From contig JACQVL010000342.1 of assembly GCA_016209865.1 (NCBI GenBank), positions 1-22,623 on the forward strand: a stretch of 22,623 nucleotides of DNA. The letters are read 5' to 3'. The translations under genes and the position numbers were made by a program. The DNA comes from Candidatus Latescibacterota bacterium (GTDB lineage Bacteria; JAAXHH01; JACQVL01). Below, piece by piece: positions 1,311 to 22,177 of the stretch. The notes beneath the pieces were generated by a model, which was given only the letters and a program-made list of their open reading frames with translations, was not told the origin of the DNA and searched no databases. Every line of letters starts with the position of its first letter. The stretch's first letter is position 1.

Positions 1311-1435
1311 AAATAAAAAAATAAGGACGAAGGACAAAGGACGAAAGTGAAAGGACGAAAGATCATCGTCATTCCCGCGAAAGCGGAATCCATTATCTTT
1401 TTCGTACTTCGTCCTTCGACCTTCGTCCTTACTGG
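1311..1435. repeat. Inverted heptad arrays (AGGACGA / TTCGTCC) around an ATTCCC palindrome
   Basis: The left array has six 7-bp units from 1324 to 1365 (AGGACGA, AGGACAA, AGGACGA, then AAGTGAA, AGGACGA and AAGATCA). The right array runs 1401-1435 with TTCGTAC, TTCGTCC, TTCGACC and TTCGTCC. The two arms are complementary. Between them lies the small palindrome ATTCCCGCGAAAGCGGAAT (1371-1389), which resembles the widespread ATTCCC(N8)GGGAAT element. The right arm ends at the Shine-Dalgarno GGAGGTG (1434-1440) of the next gene. Confidence 0.85.
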
Positions 1436-1444
1436 AGGTGTAGC

Positions 1445-3277
1445 ATGACATACGGCTGGGCAGGAAAAGTTCTGCGCGTAGACCTGGCACACGGACGGGT
1501 CACGAGAGAACCGCTGAACGATCAGTGGGCGCGCGATTACGTCGGGGGTCGCGGGCTGGCGGCCCGGTATCTGTACGAGGAGATGGACCCGACGGTCGAT
1601 CCGTTCAGCCCGGACAATAAACTGATCCTGGCGACCGGGCCGTTGACCGGGACGAACTCGTCCTGCGGGTCGCGGTACATGGTCGTGACCAAAGGCCCGC
1701 TCACGGGCGCGATCACCACCTCCAACTCTGGCGGACACTGGGGGCCGGCGTTGAAGTTCGCCGGGTACGACATGGTCATCGTCGAAGGCCGGTCGCCGTT
1801 CCCCTGCTACCTGTTCGTCCACAACGATCAGGTCGAGATCCGCGACGCCCGGAACGTCTGGGGCCGGACGGTCTCTGAGACCGAGGATACCCTCCGTGAG
1901 GAGACGGGCATCCCCGACCTGCGCATCGCCGGGATCGGGCCGGCCGGGGAGAAGCTCGTCCGGTTTGCCTGCATCGTGAACGACAAACACCGGGCGGCGG
2001 GCCGGTCGGGGGTCGGAGCGGTCATGGGAGCGAAGAACCTCAAAGCGATCGCGGTGCGCGGGACGCAGGGGGTTCGGATCGCCCGTCCCGCCGACTACAT
2101 GCGGGCGACCTGGGCGTACCATCGCCTGCTCGCGGACAGTCCGGGCCGGAAAGGGTTCAGCGAGCTCGGGACCGCGCCGACGATCGACCTGACGAACGCG
2201 TTCGGCGGACTCCCCACCCGGAATTTTACCGCCGGTCAGTTCGAGGGCGCGGAGGAAATCAACGGGAACAGCATCAAGGAGAGACGGCTGATCACGAACA
2301 AGGCGTGCTTCGCCTGCAACATCGCCTGCGGCCGGGTGACGAAGATCGGCCCGGAAGCGAATCGGCTCATGGTCAACACCCACCCACGCAACTGGAAGGT
2401 GGCGGGGGAAGGCCCGGAGTACGAGAATCTGTGGGCGTTAGGCGCGGATTGCGGGGTGGACGACCTCGACGCCGTCCTGATGGCCAACTATCTCTGCAAC
2501 GACTTAGGGATGGACCCCATCTCGATGGGGGCGACCTTAGCCGCCGCGATGGAGATGTCCGAGAAGGGCATCTTAAACGAGGCGATCACCGGAGGCCCGC
2601 TGCGGTTCGGGGACGGCCAGGCGCTCATTCGCCTGGTCGAAGCGACGGGATACCGGGAGGGATTCGGGAACGAATTGGCTGAAGGCAGCAAGCGGATGAC
2701 CGAGAAGTTCAACCATCCCGAATTCTTCATGGGGGTGAAAGGCCAGGAATTCCCCGCCTACGACCCGCGCGGGTTCCAGGGGATGGGCGTGGCGTACGCC
2801 ACCTGCAACCGGGGGGCCTGCCATCTGCGCGCCTGGACGCCAGCGATCGAGACGTCCGGTCAGGCGGACCCGCATGGGACCGAAGGGAAGTCGCCCTGGG
2901 TCGTTGATCAACAGAACCAGTCGACCGCCCATGACGCGACCGGCCTCTGCCTGTTCGTCACCTTCGCGGGGGCGACTCTGGACAACTTAGTGGAATGTCT
3001 GAGCGCGGCGACGGGGGTGGACTATACGGTCGAGGATTTCACCAAGATCGGCGAGCGTATCTGGAACCTCGAACGGCTCTGGAACCTGCGCGCCGGGCTG
3101 ACCGCGAAGGACGATGACCTGCCGAAACGATTGCTCCAGGAGGCGCACGCCGAGGGTCCGTCCGCCGGCGTCCTCGTCCATCTCGACCGGATGCTGCCGG
3201 AGTACTATGCCGTCCGCGGCTGGACGGCGGATGGCCGGCCGACGGAGCAGAAATTGCTGGAACTGGGTTTAACTTAG
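1445..3277 (+). CDS. Aldehyde:ferredoxin oxidoreductase, copy 2 (complete)
   Basis: A full-length 610-residue member, close to the roughly 605 residues of the Pyrococcus furiosus enzyme. The N-terminal AFOR domain opens with GWAGKVLRVDL. The 4Fe-4S ligands are C288, C291 and C295 in KACFACNIACGR, the same numbers as in P. furiosus AOR, with a fourth ligand at C502 in DATGLC. Family motifs GPEYEN, EFPAYDPRG and RGACHLR are intact. The start is supported by GGAGGTG ending four bases before the ATG. The protein is clearly paralogous to the truncated gene upstream and is followed by a flavoprotein gene. Together they suggest an NAD-linked AOR like the Aromatoleum AorABC complex; any ferredoxin-type AorA subunit would have to lie left of the window. 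The physiological aldehyde cannot be told from sequence. Confidence 0.96.
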   Translation: MTYGWAGKVLRVDLAHGRVTREPLNDQWARDYVGGRGLAARYLYEEMDPTVDPFSPDNKLILATGPLTGTNSSCGSRYMVVTKGPLTGAITTSNSGGHWGPALKFAGYDMVIVEGRSPFPCYLFVHNDQVEIRDARNVWGRTVSETEDTLREETGIPDLRIAGIGPAGEKLVRFACIVNDKHRAAGRSGVGAVMGAKNLKAIAVRGTQGVRIARPADYMRATWAYHRLLADSPGRKGFSELGTAPTIDLTNAFGGLPTRNFTAGQFEGAEEINGNSIKERRLITNKACFACNIACGRVTKIGPEANRLMVNTHPRNWKVAGEGPEYENLWALGADCGVDDLDAVLMANYLCNDLGMDPISMGATLAAAMEMSEKGILNEAITGGPLRFGDGQALIRLVEATGYREGFGNELAEGSKRMTEKFNHPEFFMGVKGQEFPAYDPRGFQGMGVAYATCNRGACHLRAWTPAIETSGQADPHGTEGKSPWVVDQQNQSTAHDATGLCLFVTFAGATLDNLVECLSAATGVDYTVEDFTKIGERIWNLERLWNLRAGLTAKDDDLPKRLLQEAHAEGPSAGVLVHLDRMLPEYYAVRGWTADGRPTEQKLLELGLT

Positions 3278-3365
3278 CGTTCGCACGTTGGCACGTTAAA
3301 ACGTTTGCACGTTTATGGCTTTCAAAACGTTCTAACGTGCGAACGTTCCAACGTGTCAACGTTCA
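3278..3365. repeat. Inverted octad arrays built on ACGTT
   Basis: The left array has an exact 8-bp period: ACGTTGGC (3285), ACGTTAAA (3293), ACGTTTGC (3301) and ACGTTTAT (3309). After a short spacer, the right array has five units starting with AACGT at 3326, 3334, 3342, 3350 and 3358. The arms are mutually complementary through the near-palindromic ACGT core. The array begins directly after the AOR stop codon and ends a few bases before the GGAGGG ribosome site of the next gene. Confidence 0.85.
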
Positions 3366-3385
3366 GTTGATGGAGGGACCTCACG

Positions 3386-4759
3386 ATGTCAACCAAGCAC
3401 GTGATCATCGGCGGTGGGGCGGCCGGCATGAACGCGATCGAGACGATCCGGGGGGTTGACGAGGGCGCGTCGTCGATAACGCTGATCTCTGATGAGCCCG
3501 CCTACGCCCGGATGGCTCTTCCTTATTACATCTCAGGGGAAATCCCGGAGAGGCAACTGATGGCGGGGGATGAGAGGTATTTCGACCGTCTGAGGGTTCA
3601 TACCCTGTTCGGCAAACGCGTCACCGCCGTCAGTCCGGGCCAGAAGCGCGTCGTCCTGAACGATGGGACGGCGGTCGAGTACGACAACCTGCTCATCGCC
3701 ACTGGATCATCCGCCCAGCGACTGAACATCCCCGGCGCGGATGAGGATGGGGTGTACAACCTGTGGACGTTAGACGATGCCCGGAAGACCCTGGCGAAGC
3801 TCACCCCTCAGGCCGAAGTCGCGTTCATCGGAGCCGGGTTCATCGGGTTCATCATCCTCAACGCGCTGTACAAGCTCGGCACGAAGCTGCACGTGGTCGA
3901 GGTCGAGAATCAGGTGCTCCCCCGGATGCTCGACCCCCAGGGCGGCTCCCTGGTCTCCAGTTGGCTCACCCAGCACGGAGTGAAGGCGTACACCGGGGTG
4001 GGCGTCGTGGAGATCGAAGTCCAGCGCAACAAACGGAAAGTCCTGCGACTGTCCAACGGCAAACAGATCAAAGCTGACCTGGTCATCATCGCCACCGGCA
4101 TCACCACGAACATCGGGTTCCTCAGCGGGTCGGGCATCCACACCAACCAGGGCATCCTCGCCAACCACCGGCTTCAGACGAATTATGCCAACATCTATGC
4201 GGCCGGGGATGTAGCGGAAGGCCCCGACCTGTCGACCGGCAGGCTGGCCATCCACGCCATCCAGCCGACCGTCGTCGATCATGGCCGCATCGCCGGGGCG
4301 AACATGGCCGGCCATGCGGTCGACTATCCGGGCAGCTTGCTGATGAACATCCTCGACGTCTGCGGCCTGCAGTGCGCCAGTTTCGGGCTGTGGCGGGATG
4401 ACGGCCACGAGACGCTGTCGGTCGTCAACGCCACCCGCCCGATCTACCGGAAGCTCGTCTGGGATCACGGCCGGATCGTCGGCGCGATCTTCCTCGGCCC
4501 GGCGGACGACGTCGCCATGCTGAACGACATGGGGATGGTGAAGGGACTCATCCAGACGAAGGCGGAACTGGGCGCGTGGAAGCAGCATCTCAAAGAGAAT
4601 CCGGTGGACATCCGGCGGCCGTACGTCGCCACCAAGACGGCGGCGAAGCTGCTGGAGATGACCCTCCTCGGCCGGCCGTCGGCGTACCGTGACTACCGGC
4701 ACGCCCAGACGAAGACATGGCAGCCCCACGGGGTGTTCGTCGGGACGAAACAGGCGTAG
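3386..4759 (+). CDS. FAD-dependent pyridine nucleotide oxidoreductase (AOR-associated)
   Basis: A 457-residue two-dinucleotide-binding-domain flavoprotein of the NirB / rubredoxin-reductase / ferredoxin-reductase type. The FAD-binding Rossmann motif is IIGGGAAG at residues 7-14. The NAD(P)-binding motif is FIGAGFIG at 148-155. The second FAD contact is AAGDVAEGPD at 272-281. No redox-active CxxC or CxxxxC disulfide follows the FAD motif, so this is not a thioredoxin- or lipoamide-reductase type. GGAGGG lies about nine bases before the ATG. Its place directly after two AOR genes suggests it passes electrons between NAD(H) and the tungsten enzyme, as AorC does in Aromatoleum. That role is inferred from context. 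A stand-alone nitrite- or rubredoxin-reductase-like function is the alternative. Confidence 0.88.
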   Translation: MSTKHVIIGGGAAGMNAIETIRGVDEGASSITLISDEPAYARMALPYYISGEIPERQLMAGDERYFDRLRVHTLFGKRVTAVSPGQKRVVLNDGTAVEYDNLLIATGSSAQRLNIPGADEDGVYNLWTLDDARKTLAKLTPQAEVAFIGAGFIGFIILNALYKLGTKLHVVEVENQVLPRMLDPQGGSLVSSWLTQHGVKAYTGVGVVEIEVQRNKRKVLRLSNGKQIKADLVIIATGITTNIGFLSGSGIHTNQGILANHRLQTNYANIYAAGDVAEGPDLSTGRLAIHAIQPTVVDHGRIAGANMAGHAVDYPGSLLMNILDVCGLQCASFGLWRDDGHETLSVVNATRPIYRKLVWDHGRIVGAIFLGPADDVAMLNDMGMVKGLIQTKAELGAWKQHLKENPVDIRRPYVATKTAAKLLEMTLLGRPSAYRDYRHAQTKTWQPHGVFVGTKQA

Positions 4760-4785
4760 ACGCTCTTTAGGATCGAGGATGAACG

Positions 4786-4831
4786 AGGGCGCGACCTGCC
4801 TCCAACGCTTCAGGAGACGGCTTCGCGCCCT
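4786..4831. other. Stem-loop with GGGCGCGA / TCGCGCCC arms
   Basis: Perfect 9-bp inverted repeat AGGGCGCGA (4786-4794) / TCGCGCCCT (4823-4831) with a 28-base loop, inside the 94-bp gap before the HEPN gene. It has no T-tract, so it is not an obvious intrinsic terminator. The same 8-bp arms recur at 19173-19192 with a much shorter loop. The role is unknown. Confidence 0.5.
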
Positions 4832-4853
4832 TCACGTTTATGGATGACTCGCC

Positions 4854-5297
4854 ATGCCTGCTCGACATGAAGATTGGTTGAAACAGGCGGAACGTGATGT
4901 CGAACATGCACGCCATGCGGTCGAGCATCGTGAGTTTGAGTGGGCCTGTTTTGCCGCGCAGCAGGCGGCTGAGAAAGCATTGAAAGCGCTCTATCAAATC
5001 CTTGAGGGCGAGGGTTGGGGCCATTCCGTGACGAAGCTGCTCGAACAACTTCCGGCATCTCATACCCCAGACTCCCGCCTTGTTGAAGCCGGGATGCGTC
5101 TCGATAAACTCTACATCCCGACCCGGTACCCGAACGGGTTTGATGTCGGCGCACCGATGGATTACTACACGGAAGCCGAAGCCCAGGAAGCGATCGACGA
5201 TGCCCAGGCTATTCTTTCCTTCGTCAGGAGCCAGATGGCTGGATCGACCAGCGGTGATCGTGGCTCTGAGACGGGCGGCACACCGCCTGCGCCGTGA
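4854..5297 (+). CDS. HEPN domain protein (partner of downstream nucleotidyltransferase)
   Basis: A 147-residue all-helical HEPN protein of the PF05168 type. Recognisable parts are the early DWLKQAERDVEHA helix, the family core FAAQQAAEKALKAL (residues 33-46), the GHS turn and the terminal YIPTRYPNG motif (87-95). HEPN proteins paired with minimal nucleotidyltransferases often form toxin-antitoxin modules in which HEPN is an RNase. The usual Rx4-6H RNase motif is not evident in its normal late position; the only matches lie in helix 1 (R14-H21, R20-H25). Toxicity is therefore uncertain. The last 20 or so residues are low in complexity and overlap the next gene, so they may be just overlap sequence. 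No clear ribosome site decides between ATG 4854 and the nearby ATGs at 4840 and 4844, which lie in other frames. Confidence 0.85.
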   Translation: MPARHEDWLKQAERDVEHARHAVEHREFEWACFAAQQAAEKALKALYQILEGEGWGHSVTKLLEQLPASHTPDSRLVEAGMRLDKLYIPTRYPNGFDVGAPMDYYTEAEAQEAIDDAQAILSFVRSQMAGSTSGDRGSETGGTPPAP

Positions 5298-5568
5298 GCG
5301 TCCCGACGTCGAGGCCGTCTATCTGTTTGGGTCACTGGCGACCGGTACCGCGACCCCACGGAGCGATGCGGATATTCTCATCGTCGTGCGCGCCCCTGTG
5401 AGGGGTGATGCACGCAGTCTGATCGACCGTATCCCTGATTATCTCTCCTTTTTTCGCCCGATTCCCGTTCCAGTGGATGTGATCCCTTGCCCGTCTGGTG
5501 CAGTCGAGCAACGCCCGATGTTGCGCCGTGCGCGGTCGGAAGGGATTCGATTGGATGTTGATGAATAA
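5254..5568 (+). CDS. MNT-type nucleotidyltransferase (HEPN partner)
   Basis: A small polymerase-beta-fold nucleotidyltransferase of about 104 residues. The catalytic pattern GSx10DxD is intact in GSLATGTATPRSDAD, and a third acidic residue lies in VPVDVIP. The open frame extends upstream to 5080 without homology, inside the HEPN gene in another frame. I therefore place the start at GTG 5254, giving a 44-base overlap with HEPN; GTG 5260 is equally possible. In known MNT/HEPN pairs the nucleotidyltransferase neutralises HEPN by adding AMP. Here the order is HEPN first. Its 3' end overlaps tenA, so the three genes are probably co-translated. Family assignment is firm; start and function are inferred. 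Confidence 0.85.
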   Translation: MIVALRRAAHRLRRERPDVEAVYLFGSLATGTATPRSDADILIVVRAPVRGDARSLIDRIPDYLSFFRPIPVPVDVIPCPSGAVEQRPMLRRARSEGIRLDVDE

Positions 5569-6226
5569 CATCACTCCCACCCTCTGGGCCGCCATCGTGC
5601 CGATTTTCGATGCGATCCTTGCCCACCCGTTCATCACCGGACTGACGGACGGGCGGCTCGGCCGGCCTCAGTTCCAGTTCTACGTCGTGCAAGACGCCGT
5701 CTACCTGCGGGAGTTCGCCCGGGCGCTCAGCCTGGCCGCCGCTAAAGCGCCAGACGAAGACGCGATCATCATGTTCAACGAGCACGCGAAAGGAGCGCTT
5801 GAAGTCGAACGGGCGCTCCATGAGAGCTTCTTCAAGGAATTCGGCCTCTCGGAAGACGAGGTCCGCACGACCCCGCTCGCTCCCACCAACCTGGCGTACA
5901 CCAGCTATCTGCTCGCCGTCGCCTACGGACGGCCATTCCACGAGACGTTAGCCGCCCTCCTCCCATGCTACTGGATCTACTGGGAGGTCGGGAAGGCGCT
6001 GATGGCGCACGGCTCGCCCGACCCGTTGTACCGGCGCTGGATCGACACTTACGGCGCGGAGAGCTTCGGGACGATCGTCCAGGCCGTCCTGGCCCTCACC
6101 GATCGCGTCGCGTCCAGCCTGAACCCGGACGCGCACGACGCCATGCGACGGCATTTCATCACGACCAGTCGGTACGAATGGATGTTCTGGGAGATGGGCT
6201 ACCGTCAGGAACCGTGGTCGGTGTGA
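5555..6226 (+). CDS. tenA: TenA-family aminopyrimidine aminohydrolase (thiaminase II)
   Basis: A 223-residue TenA protein that salvages the thiamine pyrimidine by hydrolysing 4-amino-5-aminomethyl-2-methylpyrimidine to the hydroxymethyl form. With the ATG at 5555, D47, Y115, C138, Y166 and E208 sit at a constant offset of +3 from D44, Y112, C135, Y163 and E205 of Bacillus subtilis TenA. The catalytic Cys is in LPCYWIYWEVG and the catalytic Glu in RYEWMFWEMGY. One aromatic that is usually Tyr is Phe (F54). I prefer ATG 5555 over ATG 5561 because GGAAGGG (5538-5544) is ten bases away rather than sixteen. Both starts overlap the end of the nucleotidyltransferase gene. No thi-box riboswitch is visible upstream. 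The only thiamine-diphosphate enzyme here is at 17264-18955. Confidence 0.93.
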   Translation: MLMNNITPTLWAAIVPIFDAILAHPFITGLTDGRLGRPQFQFYVVQDAVYLREFARALSLAAAKAPDEDAIIMFNEHAKGALEVERALHESFFKEFGLSEDEVRTTPLAPTNLAYTSYLLAVAYGRPFHETLAALLPCYWIYWEVGKALMAHGSPDPLYRRWIDTYGAESFGTIVQAVLALTDRVASSLNPDAHDAMRRHFITTSRYEWMFWEMGYRQEPWSV

Positions 6227-6246
6227 AGAAAAGAAGGGTGAGAACC

Positions 6247-6267
6247 AGTGACAAGTGACGAGTAAAA
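6247..6267. repeat. Short heptad array (AGTGACA)
   Basis: Three 7-bp units: AGTGACA (6247), AGTGACG (6254) and AGTAAAA (6261). This is a single arm without a partner. The GTG start codon of the permease at 6255 lies inside the second unit. The unit matches the array at 20494-20528. Confidence 0.6.
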
Positions 6268-7667: not shown

Positions 7668-8806
7668 TCATCACAGATGTTCTCACCTATCTCGTCCATC
7701 CGGACCACCGGAACCTCCTCTTCGTCAAGGTGCGCACGGATGAGGGGATCGACGGCATCGGAGAGGCGTATTCTGTCGGCCCGGACGACGCGACGGCGGC
7801 GACGATCCAGTATTTTAAGGACTGGATCGTCGGGCTCGACCCGATGCGGGTCGAAGACCTCTGGGCACGGTTGTACAACGGCAGCCGGTTTCCCGGCGGC
7901 TCGATCGTCAATTCCGCTATCAGCGGGATCGAGCATGCTCTGTGGGATATCAAGGGCAAGGCTCTGGGAGTGCCCGTCTACCAGCTCTTAGGGGGGGCAT
8001 GCCGGGACAAGGTTCGCGTCTACCAGGGCACGGGCGGAGCCACCCCTGACGAGATGGCTGCACATGCCGTCTCGCTCATCGAACGGTACGGGTACACCGC
8101 CCTCAAGATCGGTCCGCAGCCGCCCGGACACCACAGCCTGCCCATCAACCGGGTCGTCCGGGAGTCCGCCGTCCGTCTGGAAGCGGTGCGGAAGGCGGTC
8201 GGTCCCGACATCGACATCGGCGTCGATCCCCACGCGACGACCTTCGAGCCCATCCGGGCGATCCAGATGGCAGAAGCGCTCAAGCCATACACCCCGTTCT
8301 TCTTCGAGGAACCGCTCCGGCCTGAGAACATCGACGCGCTGGCCAGAGTCGCGGCTCAGGTCGACATCCCGATCGCGACCGGGGAGATGCTGTACACGAA
8401 GTTCGAGTTCCGGGACCTCCTCGTCAAGGCCGCGGCCGATATCCTCCAGCCGGACGTGTGCTGCGCGGGCGGTCTGCTGGAGATGAAGAAGATCGCCGCG
8501 ATGGCGGAGGCGTTCTACGTCTCCATCGCGCCCCACAACCCGATGGGACCAGTGGCTACCGCCGTCAACGTCCATTTCGCCGCATCCACACCCAATTTCC
8601 TCATCCTCGAGTACATCCCAGACGACGCACCACCGCGCCGGGACCTCGTCAAAGAGCCGCTCGTCGTCAAGAACGGGTACATCGACCTCCCGACCAAGCC
8701 GGGGCTGGGGATCGAACTGAACGAAGAGGCGTTCGTCCACTATCCCTTCAAGCCCTGGCGGCGCGGGTTCCCGTTGCACGACGACGGCGCGATGGCGTTG
8801 ATATGA
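7664..8806 (+). CDS. Mandelate racemase/muconate lactonizing enzyme family, galactonate-dehydratase-like
   Basis: A 380-residue enolase-superfamily TIM-barrel enzyme with an N-terminal capping domain. The metal ligands are D188 (GVDPH), E215 (FFFEEP) and E241 (ATGEM). H190 in the D-x-H pair and H291 in APHNPMGP match the acid and base histidines of D-galactonate dehydratase (D183/H185 and H285 in GalD). The following segment, to NFLILEY, also has the GalD flavour. The expected reaction is syn or anti dehydration of an aldonic acid to a 2-keto-3-deoxy acid. The gene is joined by ATGA overlaps to the permease before it and the methyltransferase after it. Subgroup assignment rests on these residues. 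The exact sugar acid is not determinable. Confidence 0.9.
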   Translation: MIITDVLTYLVHPDHRNLLFVKVRTDEGIDGIGEAYSVGPDDATAATIQYFKDWIVGLDPMRVEDLWARLYNGSRFPGGSIVNSAISGIEHALWDIKGKALGVPVYQLLGGACRDKVRVYQGTGGATPDEMAAHAVSLIERYGYTALKIGPQPPGHHSLPINRVVRESAVRLEAVRKAVGPDIDIGVDPHATTFEPIRAIQMAEALKPYTPFFFEEPLRPENIDALARVAAQVDIPIATGEMLYTKFEFRDLLVKAAADILQPDVCCAGGLLEMKKIAAMAEAFYVSIAPHNPMGPVATAVNVHFAASTPNFLILEYIPDDAPPRRDLVKEPLVVKNGYIDLPTKPGLGIELNEEAFVHYPFKPWRRGFPLHDDGAMALI

Positions 8807-9603
8807 ACGCAAAGACACGGGTCAAGGCGCAATTCGAGCGTCAGGCGAAACAGTACACGGTCAGCGCCGTCCACGCGGGCGGGGAGAGCCTCGACCGGCT
8901 CGTCGACCTGGCGGAGTTGCGGCCGGAGGACGTGACGCTCGACGTGGCGACCGGGACCGGGTTCACCGCCTGCGCGGTCGCCCCGTTCGTCCGCCGGGTG
9001 GTCGCCAGCGACCTGGCGCCCGCGATGCTGAACGAGACTCGGGCGCTCGCCGCCCGGCGGGGCCTGACGAACGTGCTCGCCCAGCACGCCGACGCCGAAG
9101 CCTTGCCGTTCCGTGATCGGGTCTTCGACCTCGTCACCTGCCGGACGGCGCCCCATCATTTTCTCGACCCGATGGCGTTTTTCCGGGAGACCCATCGCGT
9201 CCTGAAGCCCGGCGGCCGGCTGGTCGTCTCCGACACCTGCTCCCCCGACGATGACGCCGGGGATGCCTGGATGAACCGGCTCGAAGTCCTCCGCGACGCC
9301 ACGCACATCCGGAATTACCGGCCGGGCGAGTGGCGGCGGATGGCCGATCAGGCCGGTCTCGTCTGGGAGACGGGGGAGGTTGGACTCCGTCAATCGATGC
9401 GTTTTCAGGAATGGGTCGCGCGATCCGGCACCCCTCCGGAGGTCATCGAGGACGTGCGGCGCATGCTCACTAAAGCTTCCCCGGCCCTGCGCGAGACGTT
9501 CCAGATCGAGGAGCGTGAAGACGACATCCATTTCGCCTGGCCGTACGTCGTGTTCCGGGCGCGGAAAATCGGTGGTCAGTGGTCGGTGATCGGTGGTCGG
9601 TGA
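8803..9603 (+). CDS. Class I SAM-dependent methyltransferase (UbiE/Methyltransf_11 type)
   Basis: A 266-residue Rossmann-fold methyltransferase. Motif I is LDVATGTG at residues 46-53, the acidic residue ending strand 2 is D70, and the post-motif segment is HADAEALPF. The VLKPGGRLVVSDT stretch is typical of UbiE-like enzymes. The ATG at 8803 overlaps the previous stop as ATGA, so the upstream open frame is a shadow and not part of the gene. The last residues (GGQWSVIGGR) and the stop are encoded by a heptad array (9571-9605), so the natural C-terminus may once have been shorter. The methyl acceptor is unknown. Membership in the permease/dehydratase operon is the only functional hint. Confidence 0.9.
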   Translation: MNAKTRVKAQFERQAKQYTVSAVHAGGESLDRLVDLAELRPEDVTLDVATGTGFTACAVAPFVRRVVASDLAPAMLNETRALAARRGLTNVLAQHADAEALPFRDRVFDLVTCRTAPHHFLDPMAFFRETHRVLKPGGRLVVSDTCSPDDDAGDAWMNRLEVLRDATHIRNYRPGEWRRMADQAGLVWETGEVGLRQSMRFQEWVARSGTPPEVIEDVRRMLTKASPALRETFQIEEREDDIHFAWPYVVFRARKIGGQWSVIGGR

Positions 9604-9605: not shown

Positions 9606-9609
9606 ACCT

Positions 9610-10479
9610 ATGAGGTATTGGTGGATCAGTGTCATCATTCTGTTCTCTGTGCCATCTGTGATTCTTGCCGCGTCCCCGCACGTCCATCAGGCCAGGGCGG
9701 TGAGCCGTGCAGAGGTGGTCGACGCGATGAAGCATTGTAAAGGGTACGACCCGACGGCCACGACCAACGGAGCCCGGTTTCAGGCGGAGGTCCTCATGCA
9801 CCTGGCCCGGCAGGCACGCGCACGGGACCCGGAAGGGCCGCCCTTGCTCGTCAGGGCCGCAGACTGGTTCCATGCGTTCTTAGAGATCACTGGCCGGACG
9901 ATCGCGACCGCCCCGCTCTTCGCCCTCCTGGCGTATCGGTACGGACAGGACATGGAGATCGACTACCGGACCGACTGTGTGATCAGCAAGGTGCTGGAAG
10001 GCCCGCGCCCGGAGTTTGCGGCGAACGTGAAGGTCTGGTGGCCAGATGCCCCGAAAGGCCCGCAGTCCTACTCCTACCAGGATACCCTGTCAACTCCCCA
10101 GTTGAGGGTGACTAACCATCGGGTCATCACCTACCGGCTGCTCGTTTTCAAGGATTGGATCGTGTACGACGAGGTCTCGGGACTGACCGGACGCCCCACG
10201 TCGGGTCTTCTGGGCGCGCTGTTCCGGCTCATCGGAGAGGGCCGGGTCGTGGAATCCCGGATGGCGATCTCCCGTGATGGACTGCAAATCTCTCGCGCAC
10301 AGGCTAAGAAAGCGTTTATAGGCGTCACGACGACCGTGACCGTGTACCCCAACGGATACACGGTCAAGGATGTCCCGCCCAATCGACGGGACCTGGAGGC
10401 TCTGGAGGCCCGACTGAAGCAACCGTTGAAGATCGAGTATGTGCCGTTTGGTGGGCCTTCACCGACCACTGACCACTGA
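9610..10479 (+). CDS. Secreted protein of unknown function, bracketed by inverted heptad arrays
   Basis: A 289-residue protein I do not recognise. Residues 1-21 form a signal peptide: MRYWW, a hydrophobic core, then a signal-peptidase-like site near ILAASP. The mature protein is soluble, with no further clear membrane segment, no lipobox and no cysteine motif. The middle part (around residues 100-190) is rich in aromatic and charged residues, and a VYPNGY segment occurs near residue 240. The start ATG lies seven bases after the methyltransferase stop without a good ribosome site. The C-terminal PSPTTDH and the stop are encoded by the right-hand heptad array. The gene has no functional link to its neighbours and could be a separate cassette. 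Coding status is well supported by length and the signal peptide. Confidence 0.75.
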   Translation: MRYWWISVIILFSVPSVILAASPHVHQARAVSRAEVVDAMKHCKGYDPTATTNGARFQAEVLMHLARQARARDPEGPPLLVRAADWFHAFLEITGRTIATAPLFALLAYRYGQDMEIDYRTDCVISKVLEGPRPEFAANVKVWWPDAPKGPQSYSYQDTLSTPQLRVTNHRVITYRLLVFKDWIVYDEVSGLTGRPTSGLLGALFRLIGEGRVVESRMAISRDGLQISRAQAKKAFIGVTTTVTVYPNGYTVKDVPPNRRDLEALEARLKQPLKIEYVPFGGPSPTTDH

Positions 10480-10488
10480 CTACCATAG
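10459..10488. repeat. Heptad array ACTGACC, inverted partner of 9571-9605
   Basis: Units ACCGACC (10461), ACTGACC (10468) and ACTGACT (10475) follow a 7-bp period. Bases 10459-10476 are the exact reverse complement of 9572-9589. It supplies the stop codon of the secreted protein and ends just before the TAGGAG ribosome site of the next gene. Confidence 0.8.
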
Positions 10489-10496
10489 GAGCGCCT

Positions 10497-12540: not shown

Positions 12541-12639
12541 ATTTTGGATTTTAGATTTTGGATTAAAGAACAGAGAGCCCAGTGCAACTCTCTTGCAGTT
12601 CATGTCTGGCTGTTCAATCCAAAATCTAAAATCCAAAAT
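12541..12639. repeat. Perfect 24-bp inverted heptad arrays (ATTTTGG) between convergent genes
   Basis: The left arm, 12541-12564, is made of ATTTTGG, ATTTTAG, ATTTTGG and ATT. The right arm, 12616-12639, is its exact reverse complement. The 51-base loop contains a second inverted pair, GAACAG near 12570 and CTGTTC near 12612. It lies between the stops of two converging genes and its last base belongs to the ThuA stop codon, so it could act as a bidirectional terminator or mRNA-end stabiliser. That role is inferred. The right inner part (12602-12620) recurs at 21540-21558. Confidence 0.9.
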
Positions 12640-13298: not shown

Positions 13299-13308
13299 CG
13301 GCTTGCCT

Positions 13309-14829: not shown

Positions 14830-14849
14830 ACATCCTCCTTAGAAAGGCA

Positions 14850-14926
14850 ATGATGAATGATGAACGAGGAATGATGAACGAAAACCAGGAAGAACGAGCA
14901 TGATCGGTCCCCGTTCATCGTTCTCC
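14850..14926. repeat. Heptad array ATGATGA with partial inverted arm
   Basis: Units ATGATGA (14850), ATGATGA (14857), ACGAGGA (14864), ATGATGA (14871) and ACGAAAA (14878) follow a 7-bp period. A short inverted arm, GTTCATC and GTTCTCC (14913-14926), reaches into the 3' end of the phosphatase gene and includes its stop codon. On the transcribed strand the array lies just 5' of the permease ribosome site. Confidence 0.75.
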
Positions 14927-15727: not shown

Positions 15728-15736
15728 GAGCGACTC

Positions 15737-16063: not shown

Positions 16064-16075
16064 GGGAACCTCCCT

Positions 16076-17218: not shown

Positions 17219-17226
17219 TGAACATC

Positions 17227-17268
17227 CTTTCGTCCTTCGTCCTTTGTCCTTGCTCTTTCGTCCTTACT
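17227..17268. repeat. Heptad array CCTTCGT between ThDP-enzyme and aminotransferase genes
   Basis: Six 7-bp units in register: CTTTCGT (17227), CCTTCGT (17234), CCTTTGT (17241), CCTTGCT (17248), CTTTCGT (17255) and CCTTACT (17262). It fills the whole 45-bp gap, supplies the TAA stop of the ThDP enzyme and abuts the aminotransferase ribosome site. Its unit is the same family as the arrays at 1324-1435. It has no inverted partner here. Confidence 0.8.
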
Positions 17269-18955
17269 TCGCTTCCTGGAAACGTGCATACAGGCGCGCC
17301 AGAGAGGGGCTCGGCACCTCATGATGGGCCATCACCTCGACGAGCGCGGGCCGGCCGGCGGCACACGCCTGCGCGAACGCGTCGGCCAGGTCGGCCGGGT
17401 CATCCACCCTGAACCCGGCCAGACCGACACTCTCGGCTAACTTGACCAGGTCGGGCGTCCCCAAGAACGTCGCGTACGGGCCCCGGTACGCCGACGTCTG
17501 CATGTTATGAATCATCCCGTACTGATGATCGGCGAGGACGACCAGGACGATGTTCGCCTGTTCGGTCACCGCCGTCCCCAGGTCGCTGAGAGCCATTAAC
17601 AGACACCCGTCTCCCGTCACCCCGACGACCTGGCGGTCGGGATGGACGAGCTTGGCGGCGATCGCGCCCGGCAGGGCGAACCCCATCTCCCCCCAGCGTC
17701 CCGGCAGGATCAGCCGCATCCCGGCGCGGACGGTGAGGAGGTGCTGCAGCCAGGACGCCCCATTGCTGACATCCCCGACGACGATCGCATCCGGGTCGAG
17801 ATGATTGGCCAGTTCCCGGACGGCCAGGCCAAAATGCATCGGCCGGAGCGATTCGTACTCCTCTAACGTCTGGAGTTTCGTCTCCGCGGCTACTCGCCGG
17901 TACTCGGCGAGTCTGGCCACGAGCTGGTCCCCGCTCGCCACAGTCCGTCCACGGAGGCGTTCGATCAGCCCGCAGACGGCTAAGCGGGTATCCGCCGTGG
18001 TGTCGACCGCCGCATCGGCCACACGCTTCCCTGTGTCGTCGAACGCGATGAACAGGTGGCGACCGGTGAGATGGCGGCGCAGGATGTGGACGCTCTCCGT
18101 CTCACGCAGGAACCCGACGGAGAGGACGACATCGGCGTCGCGGAGGAGGTCGTAGACGAACGGGTTGGCGGTCCAGGAATAGAAGTAACCAGCCGACAAC
18201 GGATGATCGTCCGGGATCACTCCGGCCTCATACATCGGGTAGACGACCGGCGCGGAGAGTCGTTCCGCCAGGTCGACCAGTTCCCGCGAGGCGCCGGTCG
18301 CGAAGACGCCGGGGCCGGCGGCGATCACCGGGGCGCGGGCGGCGCGCAGGGTCGAAGCGACCCGATCCAGTGCCGCCTGATCCGGCTGGAACCGGGCTGG
18401 CGGACGCCGCTGGTACGGCCTGACCTCCACCGTCTCCGGCTCGTCCCACCGTAGGGGCACCTCCACATGCACCGGGCCGGGCCTTCCGCTCGTCGCCAGA
18501 TGGAACGCCTCTGCCAGCACTGCCGGAAGGTCGGAAAACCGCTCGACCCGGACGCTCCATTTCGTGATGTCCGTAAACATTCTGTACAGGAAATCTGGCT
18601 TCTCGACCCCATGGAACGCTTCCCGGTCCGCGTCAACCGGGACGGTCCCGGAGAGATGGACGACCGGGGAGGCGGCGGTGAACGCCTGGGCGACCCCGGA
18701 GATCGAGTTGGTCGCGCCCGGCCCGGCGGTGACCAGGCAGACCCCCGGCCGGCGGGTCAGACGCCCGTACATATCCGCCATCAGCGCTGCGTTGTTCTCG
18801 TGCTTGACTGTGATGTGACGGATGGCCGGGACATCGCGGAGGGCATCGTAGATCGGGAGGACGTGCGAGCCGGGGAGGCCGAAGATCGTCTCAACGCCCT
18901 CGGCCAACAGCGCATCGACGACTGCCGTCCCGACCGTGTGGGACTGGGTGCTCAT
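17264..18955 (-). CDS. ThDP-dependent enzyme, acetolactate-synthase-like
   Basis: A 563-residue enzyme with the three-domain order of the acetohydroxyacid synthase / decarboxylase family (pyrimidine domain, central domain, ThDP domain). The catalytic Glu is E53 in KHENNAALMAD. GDG is at 448-450. The Asn-Asn that normally closes the ThDP motif is Ala-Asp in LADHQYG, so the usual Mg-ligand Asn appears to be D476. E53 excludes glyoxylate carboligase, which lacks it. No FAD or regulatory-subunit gene is nearby, so branched-chain synthesis is not indicated. A catabolic 2-oxoacid decarboxylase, carboligase or C-C hydrolase (IolD-like) is more likely. AAGGAG lies just upstream of the ATG on the minus strand. 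Confidence 0.92.
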   Translation of the reverse strand: MSTQSHTVGTAVVDALLAEGVETIFGLPGSHVLPIYDALRDVPAIRHITVKHENNAALMADMYGRLTRRPGVCLVTAGPGATNSISGVAQAFTAASPVVHLSGTVPVDADREAFHGVEKPDFLYRMFTDITKWSVRVERFSDLPAVLAEAFHLATSGRPGPVHVEVPLRWDEPETVEVRPYQRRPPARFQPDQAALDRVASTLRAARAPVIAAGPGVFATGASRELVDLAERLSAPVVYPMYEAGVIPDDHPLSAGYFYSWTANPFVYDLLRDADVVLSVGFLRETESVHILRRHLTGRHLFIAFDDTGKRVADAAVDTTADTRLAVCGLIERLRGRTVASGDQLVARLAEYRRVAAETKLQTLEEYESLRPMHFGLAVRELANHLDPDAIVVGDVSNGASWLQHLLTVRAGMRLILPGRWGEMGFALPGAIAAKLVHPDRQVVGVTGDGCLLMALSDLGTAVTEQANIVLVVLADHQYGMIHNMQTSAYRGPYATFLGTPDLVKLAESVGLAGFRVDDPADLADAFAQACAAGRPALVEVMAHHEVPSPSLARLYARFQEAK

Positions 18956-18971
18956 ACGACTCCTTAGGCCG

Positions 18972-19014
18972 ATTACGGATTGCGAATTGCGGAATGAGGA
19001 GCGAAATTCCGCTC
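18972..19014. repeat. Heptad array ATTGCGG and small palindrome
   Basis: Units ATTACGG (18972), ATTGCGA (18979), ATTGCGG (18986) and AATGAGG (18993) follow a 7-bp period. They are followed by the palindrome GAGCGAAATTCCGCTC (18999-19014). On the minus strand the array lies directly 5' of the ThDP-enzyme ribosome site. The unit is the same family as the array at 21521-21594. Confidence 0.75.
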
Positions 19015-19049
19015 TTCACAATCACTGAATTCCTGGGCAATAATGGCGC

Positions 19050-19077
19050 AATATACATACTTTAGCCGGGGAATCAA
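19050..19077 (-). promoter_or_regulatory. Candidate leftward sigma-70-type promoter
   Basis: Reading the minus strand, TTGATT (complement of 19072-19077) is followed after 16 bases by TATATT (complement of 19050-19055), matching the -35 and -10 consensus at 4/6 and 5/6. It lies in the only AT-rich part of the divergent gap, about 95 bases before the ThDP-enzyme start. It would drive the leftward operon. Predicted from sequence only. Confidence 0.5.
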
Positions 19078-19099
19078 CAAGAAAATTCAGCGATCGTCC

Positions 19100-19128
19100 T
19101 TGACAAATGCATAGACTGGCCGTAGTTT
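19100..19128 (+). promoter_or_regulatory. Candidate rightward sigma-70-type promoter
   Basis: A perfect -35 hexamer TTGACA (19100-19105) is followed after 17 bases by TAGTTT (19123-19128), a weak -10. It would transcribe the Gfo/Idh/MocA gene at 19215 with a leader of about 80 bases that contains the palindrome at 19173-19192. Predicted from sequence only. Confidence 0.5.
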
Positions 19129-19172
19129 ACTGATCCAAGCAGTGCGACGTCGTATTAATGGGACGGGTGTAG

Positions 19173-19192
19173 GGGCGCGATTCATCGCGCCC
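19173..19192. other. Tight palindrome GGGCGCGAT-TC-ATCGCGCCC in the 5' leader
   Basis: Perfect 9-bp arms with a two-base centre, lying 12 bases before the ribosome site AGGAGGA of the downstream gene. The 8-bp arm GGGCGCGA/TCGCGCCC is the same as in the stem-loop at 4786-4831. It could be an operator or a member of a dispersed palindrome family. Such GTAGGGGCG-type palindromes occur between genes in many bacteria. Confidence 0.6.
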
Positions 19193-19214
19193 TGCGCGCT
19201 TCCAGGAGGAGAAT

Positions 19215-20489
19215 ATGGAGGCGATACGGCTGGGGCTGGTTGGATGCGGCGGGATGGGCCATCGCCATCTGTTCGGCCTGGCAGAGCTCCATCGCGCTGG
19301 CCTCTGCCGGTTCGCGCCGGTTGCCGCGTGCGATCCCCGGCACGAGAACGCGGTGTCGTTAGCGGCTCACGTCACGGAGCATTTCGGGACGCGTCCCGCC
19401 GTGGTGGGGACGATGGACGAACTCGCGTCCGTCGGGGGCATCCAGGCGGTCGATATCTGCACCGACCCGCCTCATCACCACACCTTAGCGGTGGAGGCGA
19501 TGCGCCGGGGGTGGGATGCGATGGTCGAGAAGCCGATGGGACTGACCGCCCGGGCGTGCCGTCTGATGCGACAGGCTGCGGTGGAGACCGGCCGCCTGCT
19601 GTCAGTGGCGGAGAATTACCGGCGCGACCCGATCAACCGGCTGGCGAAGGCGCTGCTCGACCAGGGGGTGATCGGCCGGACCCGGTTCATGATGCACAAC
19701 ACCGCGGGCGGCCGTGACCAGATGCTCATCTCCGTCTGGCGCCACCAGAAGAACATGAGCGGCATCCTCCTGGATGTCGGGGTGCATTTTTCGGACATGA
19801 TCGAATACCTGATGGGGGACGTCACGACGGTCTACGCCCAGACCCGGCTGTACGAGAAGACCCGGAAAAACCCGATGGCCGGGAAAGACCCGGATGCCGT
19901 CGAGCACACCTCACCTGCCGGGGTCTACGAACGCTGGCAGAAGGACATGCCCGCTGAATTCGAGGCGACGGCGGAAGACGCCGCGTACGCCACCCTCGTG
20001 TTCGCCAGCGGGGCGGTCGGCCAGTACCTCGAAGAACACGCCGCCCACGGGCGGGGATTCTGGCACCGGGCGGTCTACGGGGAACGGGGGTCGCTCGACC
20101 TGCCCGGCGACCGGTCCGGCCAGCCGATCAACCTGACGCTCGACGACGGAGGCCTGATCGAGGGCGCCGCCATCCTCGACCTCGTCCCCGATTTTCACGT
20201 CGATGACGCGACGGCGGCGCTGTTCGGCGGGACGCGGCTCTGGCGGTACAGCTTCCCGTTCGCGGAGACCGACCGGAAGATCATCGCCATCGAGTACGCG
20301 GACTTTGCCGACGCCATCCTGACCGGCCGGCCGCCGGAGGTCGGGCCGGACATGGGCGCCCGCTCCGTCGCCATCTCGTACGCGATGTTAGAGTCTGGGG
20401 CGCTCAACCGGCCGGTGACGATCGACGAGGTGCTCGACGATCGGACACACACGTATCAAGCGGAGATCAACGAGAGTTTGGGGATTTAA
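19215..20489 (+). CDS. Gfo/Idh/MocA family oxidoreductase (second copy)
   Basis: A 424-residue NAD(P)-dependent sugar or polyol dehydrogenase. The Rossmann motif is GLVGCGGMGHRH (residues 7-18), the catalytic EKP is at 105-107 (K106), and LLDVGVHFSDMIEY carries the second active-site pair D187 and H191. It is longer than the first copy and differs clearly in sequence, so they are not a recent duplication. AGGAGGA lies a few bases before the ATG. The gene opens the rightward operon opposite the ThDP-enzyme operon and shares the divergent control region with it. The TIM-barrel isomerase downstream is a frequent partner of such dehydrogenases in inositol and rare-sugar pathways. Substrate not determinable. 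Confidence 0.93.
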   Translation: MEAIRLGLVGCGGMGHRHLFGLAELHRAGLCRFAPVAACDPRHENAVSLAAHVTEHFGTRPAVVGTMDELASVGGIQAVDICTDPPHHHTLAVEAMRRGWDAMVEKPMGLTARACRLMRQAAVETGRLLSVAENYRRDPINRLAKALLDQGVIGRTRFMMHNTAGGRDQMLISVWRHQKNMSGILLDVGVHFSDMIEYLMGDVTTVYAQTRLYEKTRKNPMAGKDPDAVEHTSPAGVYERWQKDMPAEFEATAEDAAYATLVFASGAVGQYLEEHAAHGRGFWHRAVYGERGSLDLPGDRSGQPINLTLDDGGLIEGAAILDLVPDFHVDDATAALFGGTRLWRYSFPFAETDRKIIAIEYADFADAILTGRPPEVGPDMGARSVAISYAMLESGALNRPVTIDEVLDDRTHTYQAEINESLGI

Positions 20490-20493
20490 AATC

Positions 20494-20663
20494 AGTGACG
20501 AGTGACAAGTGATGAGTGACGAGTTAAGATCAGGTTGTCATTCTGAGCGAAGCGAAGAATCCCGTCGTGCGTGAGACCCTTCGCTGTGCTCAGGGTGACA
20601 TGGGGGGAGCAGTTCTTCGCCTCAATCTTAATCTTCTTTTCCTCGTCACTGGTCACTGCTCTT
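20494..20663. repeat. Nested intergenic repeat: AGTGACG heptads, CTGAGC palindrome pair, inverted heptads
   Basis: The outer left array has AGTGACG (20494), AGTGACA (20501), AGTGATG (20508), AGTGACG (20515) and AGTTAAG (20522). The outer right arm has CTCGTCACT (20642-20650) and GGTCACT. Inside, TTAAGAT (20524) pairs with ATCTTAA (20625). At the centre, TTCTGAGCGAAGCGAAGAA (20541-20559) faces CTTCGCTGTGCTCAGGGT (20579-20596), a dispersed type seen between genes of many bacteria. The whole 184-bp gap is repeat sequence with no gene. The right arm ends at the CGGAGG ribosome site of the next gene. Confidence 0.85.
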
Positions 20664-20673
20664 CGGAGGTTCC

Positions 20674-21516
20674 ATGCAACTCGGCTACAGCACCTGGGGG
20701 ATGCCGACCGTTCCGCTGGAGCGGGCGGTCCCGCATCTGGCCGCGCTCGGGTACGACGGCATTGAACTCACCGTCATTCCGGGCTACACCACGGAATTGA
20801 GCACCCTCGTCCCGTCCGAACGGCGGTGGATTCGGCGGGCGTTCCAGGAACACCACCTGGCGTTGCCCGCCATCGCGGCCCACTCCAGCCTGCTGGAGAC
20901 GGACCCCGACAGGCACGCGACGAACATGGCGCGGCTCCGGGCCGCGGTTGATTTAGCGGCCGACCTGACGTGGGGGGATACTCCTCCGGCTGTCAACACC
21001 ACGCCTGGGGGCGGGCCGGATGAGTGGGACGGGGTGAAGGGCCGCTTAGTGGAGGAGACGCGGACGCTGGTCGAGTACGCCGCGTCATCCGGGGTGACGA
21101 TCGCGATGGAACCGCACGTCGGCGCGTCGATCAACAGCCCGGAGCGGGTGCTCTGGCTGATCGAGCAGGTCGGCTCCCCGTACCTGCGCGTGAATTTCGA
21201 CATCAGCCACTTCGATGTCGTCGGTCTGACGATCGAGGAGACGGTGCCCGTCCTCGCGCCGTATTCCGCGCATACGCACGTCAAAGACCAGCGGGGCCGG
21301 CATCCGGATTTCGAGTTCCTCATCCCGGGCGAGGGCACGTTCGACTACGTCCGGTACCTGAAGGCGATGCAGGCCGCCGGGTATGAGAAGTTTATCACCG
21401 TCGAAGTGAGTGTCATGGTCCAACGCCGCCCGGAGTACGACCCGTTCGCGGCGGCGGAGTTGTCGTACCGAACCCTCTCCGCTGCGTTCGAGCAGGCGGG
21501 GATTGAGAGAAGGTAA
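20674..21516 (+). CDS. Sugar phosphate isomerase/epimerase family TIM barrel
   Basis: A 280-residue protein of the xylose-isomerase-like AP-endonuclease 2 family (PF01261). The barrel starts with MQLGYSTWGM and GYDGIEL. Metal-binding residues expected for the fold are visible: E146 (IAMEPHVG), D176 (NFDISHFD), H202 (HTHVKD) and E244 (ITVEVS). CGGAGG lies just upstream of the ATG. Relatives include IolE, IolI, hydroxypyruvate isomerase and D-tagatose 3-epimerase. The position after a Gfo/Idh/MocA dehydrogenase suggests the pair acts on one keto-sugar or keto-inositol intermediate. The exact reaction is unknown. Confidence 0.92.
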   Translation: MQLGYSTWGMPTVPLERAVPHLAALGYDGIELTVIPGYTTELSTLVPSERRWIRRAFQEHHLALPAIAAHSSLLETDPDRHATNMARLRAAVDLAADLTWGDTPPAVNTTPGGGPDEWDGVKGRLVEETRTLVEYAASSGVTIAMEPHVGASINSPERVLWLIEQVGSPYLRVNFDISHFDVVGLTIEETVPVLAPYSAHTHVKDQRGRHPDFEFLIPGEGTFDYVRYLKAMQAAGYEKFITVEVSVMVQRRPEYDPFAAAELSYRTLSAAFEQAGIERR

Positions 21517-21520
21517 CCCT

Positions 21521-21594
21521 ATTGCGGATTTCGGAATGCGGATTGAACAGCCAGATATCAAATCCGCAATCTGAAATCTTCAATCCGCAATTTC
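21521..21594. repeat. Inverted heptad arrays ATTGCGG / CCGCAAT
   Basis: The left array has ATTGCGG (21521), ATTTCGG (21528), AATGCGG (21535) and ATTGAAC (21542). The right array has AATCCGC (21561), AATCTGA (21568), AATCTTC (21575), AATCCGC (21582) and AATTTCA (21589). Both have a 7-bp period and are complementary. The inner segment, 21540-21558, matches the 12541-12639 element in inverted orientation with one mismatch. The right arm ends six bases before the AGGAGGGAG ribosome site. Confidence 0.85.
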
Positions 21595-21618
21595 ATATAC
21601 AGGAGGGAGATCACAGTC

Positions 21619-22050
21619 ATGCCATACGATCCTGAACTGGTACAGCCGATGCGAGAGGAACTCACCCAGCTTGGGGTGCAGGAACTACGGACATCGGCGG
21701 AGGTCGACGAGGTCTTGACGAACGAGAATGGGACCGTCCTGGTGGTCGTGAACTCGGTCTGCGGGTGTGCGGCTGCGAACGCCCGTCCGGGGGTGGCCAT
21801 GGCCCTGCAACACCGGACGCTCCCGGACAAGATCACGACCGTGTTCGCCGGCGTCGACGTGGAGGCGACCGGCCGGGCGCGCAGTTACTTCACGGGGTAT
21901 TTCCCCAGTTCCCCCCAGATCGCGCTGTTGCGTGACGGCCAGGTCGTCTTCATACTGGAGCGGCACGACATCGAAGGCCGGACTGCGCTGGATGTGGCGC
22001 ATCGGCTGACCGAGGCGTTCGACACGTACTGCGCCGTCCCAGCAGAATAA
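21619..22050 (+). CDS. BrxA/BrxB family bacilliredoxin (CGC motif)
   Basis: A 143-residue thioredoxin-fold protein of the YphP/YqiW (UPF0403) family. The active site is C48-G49-C50 in NSVCGCAAANARP. The family signatures LVVVNS, VFAGVDVEAT, YFTGYFPSSPQIALL and ERHDIEGR are all present, and the length is normal. Bacilliredoxins reduce protein-bacillithiol mixed disulfides, so the gene hints that this organism makes bacillithiol. No bsh biosynthesis genes are in the window. AGGAGGGAG precedes the ATG. It is separated from the isomerase by a 102-bp repeat-filled gap and need not share its pathway. Confidence 0.95.
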   Translation: MPYDPELVQPMREELTQLGVQELRTSAEVDEVLTNENGTVLVVVNSVCGCAAANARPGVAMALQHRTLPDKITTVFAGVDVEATGRARSYFTGYFPSSPQIALLRDGQVVFILERHDIEGRTALDVAHRLTEAFDTYCAVPAE

Positions 22051-22177
22051 GAGTATGGAAGTGTGGGGGTGTGAAGGTATGAGAGAATGAGGCGAGGGAA
22101 TGTCCTCTTTGGGCCTATACTCCCATACTCCCATACTCCCACACTTTCACGCTTTCACGCTTTCACGCTTCCATTCT
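22051..22177. repeat. Inverted octad arrays (GTATGG / CCATACT, TTCACGCT)
   Basis: The left array has 8-bp units GAGTATGG (22051), AAGTGTGG (22059), GGGTGTGA (22067), AGGTATGA (22075) and GAGAATGA (22083). The right array is eight units in exact register from 22114 to 22177: CCTATACT, then CCCATACT twice, CCCACACT, TTCACGCT three times, and TCCATTCT. A small GAGG/CCTC hairpin lies between them. The array ends two bases before the ATG of the next gene. Confidence 0.85.

Follow-up and report, generated by a model that had tools for sequence, protein, structure and literature searches.

Why would almost every gap between the genes of one bacterial contig hold its own tandem array of 7-nt or 8-nt units, as an initial annotation claimed for contig JACQVL010000342.1 of a Candidatus Latescibacterota bacterium (assembly GCA_016209865.1)? 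The window analyzed here, 22,623 nt long, is this entire contig (C309) of the metagenome-assembled genome (MAG) G000, which comprises 3.75 Mb in 356 contigs, is 83% complete, and is the sole member of its own family among the genomes compared. The closest named genomes are MAGs of sponge and marine origin, labeled Latescibacterota, Gemmatimonadetes or Zixibacteriota; the JAAXHH01 prefix of one of them we take to be the GTDB phylum name. The arrays very probably belong to a known class of heptamer repeats at gene edges. Our preferred reading, to which we give a probability of roughly 0.4, is that they are dispersed families of short polar blocks, comparable to repetitive extragenic palindromes (REPs), which spread by whole-block copying and come to lie at gene edges in a fixed orientation.

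Genes were called with our own codon model, and gaps were analyzed first in 0.63 Mb (327 gaps) and then in 1.22 Mb of G000 (664 gaps and 927 kb of coding interior), with the self-match at each lag scored against dinucleotide shuffles. In the smaller sample, the self-match of gaps at lag 7 exceeded that of shuffles by z = 22.8, with harmonics at lag 14 (z = 17.7) and lag 21 (z = 15.4) and a smaller peak at lag 8 (z = 11), while coding DNA had no lag-7 excess over shuffles; therefore, the outcome that would have undermined the initial annotation, a signal no higher than in shuffled sequence, did not occur. Arrays scoring at least 12 were present in 110 gaps compared to 0.6 in shuffles, and 94 of the 110 had a period of 7 or 14. 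The larger sample contained 374 arrays, of period 7 and in some cases 8, in 279 of the 664 gaps, and strong arrays numbered 234 in gaps but only 7 within the coding interior. Thus, an array register fixed at 7 nt (in some cases 8 nt) extends throughout this non-cyanobacterial genome, mostly between genes, and many unit sequences share a single architecture, as had been proposed.

The proposal that the unit differs by locus did not hold. Approximately ten families recur genome-wide and units are therefore not locus-specific: AGTGACG (98 arrays), RGTGRTC, GATTTTG, AAGGACG and CGGGGTT, as well as AGTGAAG, CAGGGGT, ATTGCGG, AATGATG and the period-8 unit ACGTTNNN, all in the 1.22-Mb sample. Several occur twice within the window, namely AAGGACG (at 1323 and 17229), ATTGCGG (18971 and 21521), RGTGRTC (9569 and 10460), and AGTGACG (6247 and 20494). 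Among 384 sampled genomes, exact matches to the GATTTTR family were found in 16 genomes of many families, with a reversed control that was nearly empty, and AGTGACN was present in five. The genomes G044, G055, and G291 had 26-60 GATTTTR hits each. Two further loci showed related features: L215 has a TGCTCTATGCTACATACTGCATACTG-type array ~150 bp upstream of a start codon, with a word absent elsewhere in the genome sample, and L264, from the unrelated genome G079, has a 423-bp degenerate period-7 run (ACAGGTG/ACAAGTT; positions 1269-1692), far longer than any in the window genome.

The arrays have a defined anatomy. In the families measured, a block has the form X(YX)n, in which n is ~4 and X is a 3-4 nt word present at both ends; read along the G-rich strand, an A-rich leader with GC or TC as its last letters precedes the block and an A-rich tail follows it, giving a typical block of AAAAKC-X(YX)4-AAAA and ~31 nt. 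Blocks contain three or four 7-nt units, with a mode of four units in five families, and the A-rich sequence at either end is common to several families. Of 143 AGTGACG arrays, 117 begin at AGT (phase 0); arrays of this family end in GAG or GAGT and have quantized block lengths (16/17, 23/24, 30/31, and 37/38). In four families, most deviations from the consensus fall in the second unit from the outer end. Two AGTGACG haplotypes, with a deviant A or C in unit 2, account for 42 of the 86 blocks of at least three units, and pairs of identical blocks are in excess (476 observed, 371 expected, p < 2e-4). Compared to the expectation from independent units, perfect three-unit AGTGACG blocks are rarer (7 vs 17.2) and blocks with exactly one deviant unit commoner (60 vs 42.8). 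Because AGTGACG blocks form whole-block haplotypes and avoid perfect repetition, they look copied as ready-made units rather than built locally by slippage, as the initial annotation had suggested; whole-block haplotypes are also significant in CGGGGTT. Ordinary replication slippage at 7-nt spacing (the hypothesis of Mrazek, with 7 nt as the polymerase footprint), followed by neutral retention in gaps, would agree with period 7 being the commonest long simple-repeat class in bacteria (literature cited in PMC4679880) and with the depletion of arrays from coding DNA. However, slippage would not be expected to yield a common orientation or a recurring set of families whose end phases are fixed, and the shortage of perfect arrays, the haplotypes, and an identical array in paralogues with ~94% identical flanks make it improbable as the source of the arrays.

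A strict orientation rule applies to these blocks, and it was overlooked by the initial annotation together with published precedents in Xanthomonas and Nostoc, in Beggiatoaceae, and in the Nostoc tRNA-Leu intron. Specifically, at both gene edges the G-rich strand reads from the edge into the gap (316 of 374 arrays, 316:58). Single arrays obey the rule by 154:36, and in two-array gaps the 'GC' order was observed 72 times and the 'CG' order 3 times. The bias is found at 3′ gene edges (191:38) and 5′ gene edges (125:20), where it is significant for single and multiple arrays alike, and convergent gaps show it too (30:5); between divergent genes, it reached significance for single arrays (18:4, p = 0.004) but not for multi-array gaps (10:4, p = 0.18). 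Several strong single-array exceptions lie at apparently mis-called gene starts or in the middle of gaps, and in the window all blocks with a defined G-rich strand obey. Arrays have their outer ends close to stop codons (median +1.5 nt) or, before start codons, at a distance of ~18 nt, and 5′-edge blocks sit just upstream of ribosome-binding sites (RBSs). Elsewhere in the genome, outer ends reach up to ~45 nt inside open reading frames (ORFs). For 3-kb loci from other genomes across phyla, analyzed with crude ORF calls, the rule was obeyed by 20 and not by 15, and the Trichormus plasmids (400 kb), used as a cyanobacterial control, had only 13 arrays, without clear orientation.

The same data bear on what might impose the rule. 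Because convergent gaps lack start codons and yet obey it, we reject selection on translation only. Intrinsic transcription terminators made of the repeat arms are suggested by the base of the pairs, which reads A-tract, GC, stem, GC, T-tract; they are nevertheless a highly improbable cause, because arrays are present in 37% of divergent gaps and thus nearly as often as in convergent (43%) and co-directional gaps (42-48%), the loops are far too long, and the window has no more terminator-like sites than shuffles do. Rho-loading sites also appear unlikely, because regular YC dimers are lacking from several families, TAACTGA-like and AATTATG units among them. G-quadruplex elements have been suggested for the heptamers of Xanthomonas and Nostoc, which share location, orientation, and four-unit preference with the arrays described here (PMC4692102), and the quadruplex motif is present in 25 of 26 CGGGGTT arrays. 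By contrast, none of 102 AGTGACG arrays contains it although their orientation is 92:10; the rule also holds for GATTTTG (22:4) and AGTGAAG (12:1), and AGTGACG and GATTTTG share the four-unit mode. Because families without the motif obey the same orientation and four-unit mode, quadruplexes are not the general cause; they could be a cause for single families, and as an explanation of the whole set we regard them as very improbable.

Of 72 two-array gaps, 53 have two arms from a single family (unit distance 0 or 1), compared to a background of 14% between arms taken from separate gaps and 16% between the blocks on either side of one gene. A weak inverted partner is present in 35 of 131 single-array gaps (0 in shuffles). 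The arms of one gap are, however, no more similar in their private variants than same-family arms of different gaps (p = 0.47), and we found no correlation between arm lengths within gaps. These two results speak against copying of one arm from the other by fold-back, which the initial annotation had offered as a route of local array building. Gene cassettes bounded by blocks of the same family were also rejected, because only 12 of 74 genes have a family common to both flanks, which is near background.

A further possibility is that the stretch from outer block to outer block inserts as one mobile fold-back element with array-type inverted ends, resembling a miniature inverted-repeat transposable element (MITE). 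Inverted pairs of fixed orientation and their lineage-specific presence in otherwise compact gaps agree with this idea. On the other hand, the interiors between arms are unrelated apart from CGTC-type REPs, so that a MITE with a conserved interior is rejected; no target-site duplication was found at blocks, many correctly oriented blocks are single, and the uncorrelated arm lengths also count against a unit of this type, which we find quite unlikely. The CGTC-tagged REP-like palindromes (gtcattcccgcgaaagcgggaatcca) lie in loops between heptamer arms, and 16 of 72 interiors fit a loose version of the pattern. Some gaps contain chains, in which blocks of the same orientation are joined by A-rich, AAAATC-type linkers. 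RGTGRTC lies outside AGTGACG in 9 of 10 chains (9:1), and none of the 15 multi-block gaps has a closing block ahead of an opening one. Chained blocks were as diverged as lone blocks and gave no age stratigraphy.

Paralogues and related genomes reveal gain, loss, and replacement of blocks in compact gaps. Among paralogues with a C-terminal domain in common, the position 0-1 nt after the stop codon is bare in L066, has CGGGGTT in L188 and L037, RGTGRTC in L207, and AGTGACG in L193; L188 and L037 carry an identical array in flanks that are ~94% identical. One block is 31/32 identical between paralogues with 79% identity in coding DNA, and in two other array-bearing pairs array presence differs or the same array is kept. 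In L242, the paralogous genes 2 and 9 (78% identical over 1343 nt) have period-8 arrays at both ends in one case and none called at either end in the other. Syntenic gaps between G000 and its relatives are few, below the numbers needed for statistics; in these, orthologous gaps measured 17-33 bp without strong arrays versus 108-134 bp with arrays. The gap after the second aldehyde:ferredoxin oxidoreductase gene holds the ACGTTNNN pair in the window and AGTGAAG and GTGGCAA arms in G013 (a MAG from ERR599008, same order), and is bare and ~20 bp long in G011, and a 10-bp gap in G000 corresponds to a 127-bp array-bearing gap in G013. G013 has the same array orientation (19:5) with different units, and this recurrence of the architecture in a second MAG argues against an assembly artifact. 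Arrays were not seen in the sponge relatives or in G001.

The serious rival to our preferred reading is selection for a boundary signal, in which each block would work directionally at the level of DNA or RNA (for example protein-bound, or acting in transcripts entering or leaving genes) and selection would set orientation, position, and four-unit length and keep complementary arms as a useful hairpin or cruciform. Such a signal fits the strictness with which blocks are oriented and placed at both gene edges. It also fits the shared family of paired arms, the high stability of RNA duplexes between arms (mean -37 kcal/mol), the block conserved at 31/32 positions in paralogues with 79% identical coding DNA, and the 83% conservation of positions between two Xanthomonas species (PMC4692102). 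Against it, ten unrelated unit families obey one rule and therefore share no binding sequence, the arms of one gap do not co-vary beyond family (p = 0.47), and the sponge relatives and G001 manage without arrays; moreover, the duplex energy is equal in either strand order, so that hairpin selection does not explain the orientation. We consider selection for a boundary signal possible, if on the whole unlikely.

How blocks spread we infer from their form and distribution. Our tentative suggestion, which we hold to be possible but doubtful, is that breaks or single-strand gaps between genes expose free 3′ ends of DNA, to which blocks are added. Such an end would use its 3-4 nt X word to pair with a block already present at another site, copy ~four units, and stop in the A-tract. 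Addition at both ends would give an inverted pair and addition at one end a single block, repeated addition would produce nested inward chains joined by AAAATC-type linkers, and deviant units would afterwards hold the array back from slipping. In this model, the observed orientation would follow because each 3′ end points into the gap. Several points weigh against whole-block copying and against this route for it. The haplotype signal is weak in GATTTTG and absent in AAGGACG, the order within chains is based on ten chains only, and interiors are long (median 64 nt) where a break-joining model would predict short ones. The 3′-end model alone does not account for the same family but different haplotypes at the two ends of a gap, and simple copying does not explain a shared architecture in which all units have changed together. 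Nor did a candidate enzyme emerge: in the array-bearing genomes G000 (83% complete) and G013 there was no match to the reverse transcriptase RVT_1 (PF00078), to Ku, or to the Y1 (RAYT) transposase (PF01797).

In the window itself (Table 1), arrays are present at the positions initially listed, with the reservations that the one at 6247 is very short and that those at 9569 and 10460 span ORF 3′ ends rather than gaps. The description of arrays as usually forming inverted pairs was too generous: pairs are clear at six sites (1323-1430, 3278-3364, 12541-12639, 20494-20657, 21521-21591, and 22052-22173) and weak at one (14849-14923), that is, at 6-7 of 12, and the remainder are single.

Table 1 Heptamer and octamer blocks and associated elements in the window
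Feature	Position	Strand	Context	Basis
AAGGACG block, left arm (G-type)	1323..1362	+	12 nt after AOR1 stop	Tandem Repeats Finder (TRF)
CGTC-tagged REP-like palindrome in loop (cgtcattcccgcgaaagcggaatcca)	1367..1392	+		Sequence; family described in PMC3733652
AAGGACG block, right arm (C-type)	1401..1430	-	14 nt upstream of AOR2 start	
Period-8 ACGTTNNN block, left arm	3278..3314	undefined	Directly after AOR2 stop codon	
Period-8 ACGTTNNN block, right arm	3326..3364	undefined	Upstream of FAD-oxidoreductase start	
AGTGACG family, short single G-type block, 2.4 units	6247..6263	+		Sequence
RGTGRTC block (G-type)	9569..9602	+	Over 3′ end of ORF 8803-9603	
RGTGRTC block (C-type)	10460..10483	-	Over 3′ end of ORF 9610-10479, just upstream of next RBS	
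GATTTTG block, left arm	12541..12564	+	Convergent gap	
GATTTTG block, right arm	12616..12639	-	Convergent gap	
AATGATG block (G-type)	14849..14881	+	19 nt from start codon of left minus-strand gene	
Weak sub-threshold partner arm (cgttcatcgttc) of AATGATG block	14912..14923	-		Sequence
AAGGACG block (C-type)	17229..17265	-	Over 3′ end of minus-strand gene 17264-18955	
ATTGCGG block (G-type)	18971..19000	+	15 nt from start of left minus-strand gene	
AGTGACG block, left arm	20494..20529	+	After stop at 20489, preceded by aaaatc	
Second dispersed-type inverted element in loop (tgtcattctgagcgaagcg...)	20536..20600	undefined		Sequence
AGTGACG right arm, short	20642..20657	-	16 nt upstream of start at 20674	Sequence
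ATTGCGG block, left arm	21521..21545	+		
ATTGCGG block, right arm	21561..21591	-		
Period-8 GTGTGGGA-like block, left arm	22052..22091	+	Directly after stop at 22050	
Two chained period-8 C-type blocks (ATACTCCC then CACGCTTT)	22114..22173	-	End 6 nt before start at 22180	

Within the two ORFs that they enter, the blocks at 9569-9603 and 10460-10479 seemingly provide C-terminal residues and the stop codon, and the second of these ORFs (289 aa, without Pfam match) has RGTGRTC blocks on both sides, one opening and one closing. The element occupying the loop of the AGTGACG pair (gtcattctgagcgaagcgaagaatc ... gcttcgctcagggtgac type) has similar copies in L029 and L042. A search of the window against Rfam gave no RNA family above threshold and no intron match, and sub-threshold microRNA matches reflect long stems only. 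Elsewhere in the window, positions 4854-5568 encode a HEPN domain protein followed by an MNT-like nucleotidyltransferase, a typical two-gene toxin-antitoxin layout.

The closest precedent is the work of Rehm et al. 2015 (PMC4692102) on G-rich GGGAATC and GGGGA(C/T)T heptamers in two Xanthomonas genomes and one Nostoc genome, in which four units were linked to G-quadruplexes. Those heptamers are intergenic, have the nearest ORF on their 5′ side whatever its direction, often overlap or adjoin stop codons, and form 70-75 inverted pairs per Xanthomonas genome. The arrays of G000 resemble them in the concentration of period 7 between genes, a G-rich strand that points out of the neighboring ORF at 5′ and 3′ edges alike, the preference for four units, the location near or over stop codons, and the frequency of inverted pairs. 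They differ in that each of those genomes has one quadruplex-capable G-rich family whereas G000 has approximately ten, many without quadruplex potential (CGGGGTT-like families have it, AGTGACG does not). Moreover, the published heptamers are under-represented between divergent ORFs, unlike the near-even distribution among gap types here, and the G000 arrays stand apart by their A-rich flanks, their chains, and the single deviant unit that blocks usually carry. The TAACTGA direct repeats of Beggiatoaceae, Cyanobacteria, and Bacteroidetes (MacGregor 2015, PMC4679880) are also heptamers lying just upstream of start codons, towards which they are oriented (dominant orientation 147/170); some are 'split' by a related 7-mer, and they are scattered across phyla, but they comprise one unit per genome, with almost no inverted pairs and few at stop codons. 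In the P6b stem of the Nostoc tRNA-Leu(UAA) intron, complementary degenerate heptamer arms (TDNGATT or NNTGAGT) have undergone repeated family replacement (PMC4476775). The class I unit TDNGATT describes the GATTTTG family (GATTTTG/GATTTTA units), and replacement of a whole family at the same site is common to both, although P6b is a single site in a group I intron whereas the arrays here lie at gene edges between protein genes genome-wide.

REPs with CGTC and GTAG palindromes (PMC3733652) are likewise short, dispersed intergenic units with non-random dimer orientation, and REPs of the CGTC type, whose mobilizer is unknown, are present in many loops between arms here; the blocks themselves are not palindromes, are without GTAG or CGTC tag, and occur in genomes without a RAYT match. 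The conserved interior and target-site duplication of MITEs, the convergent enrichment and divergent absence of intrinsic terminators, and the encoded reverse transcriptase of telomerase-like repeats were not found. It is conceivable, if unlikely, that one machine across several phyla extends exposed intergenic 3′ ends by ~four copies of a 7-nt word, flanked by an A-rich leader and tail; an exchangeable word, or template, would then give unrelated families under one grammar of orientation, length, and spacing, and the heptamers of Xanthomonas, Nostoc, Beggiatoa, and the tRNA-Leu intron would all be its products. Until now, these reports have each been explained separately, by quadruplexes, translational regulation, slippage, or RNA folding. 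We conclude that the arrays of G000 are a rich variant of a known, unexplained repeat class. Unrelated families that obey one rule of orientation, length, and position in a single genome separate the rule from the sequence, remove quadruplexes as a general cause, argue against simple slippage, and turn the origin of bacterial heptamer repeats into a testable question, namely what sets orientation relative to the gap.

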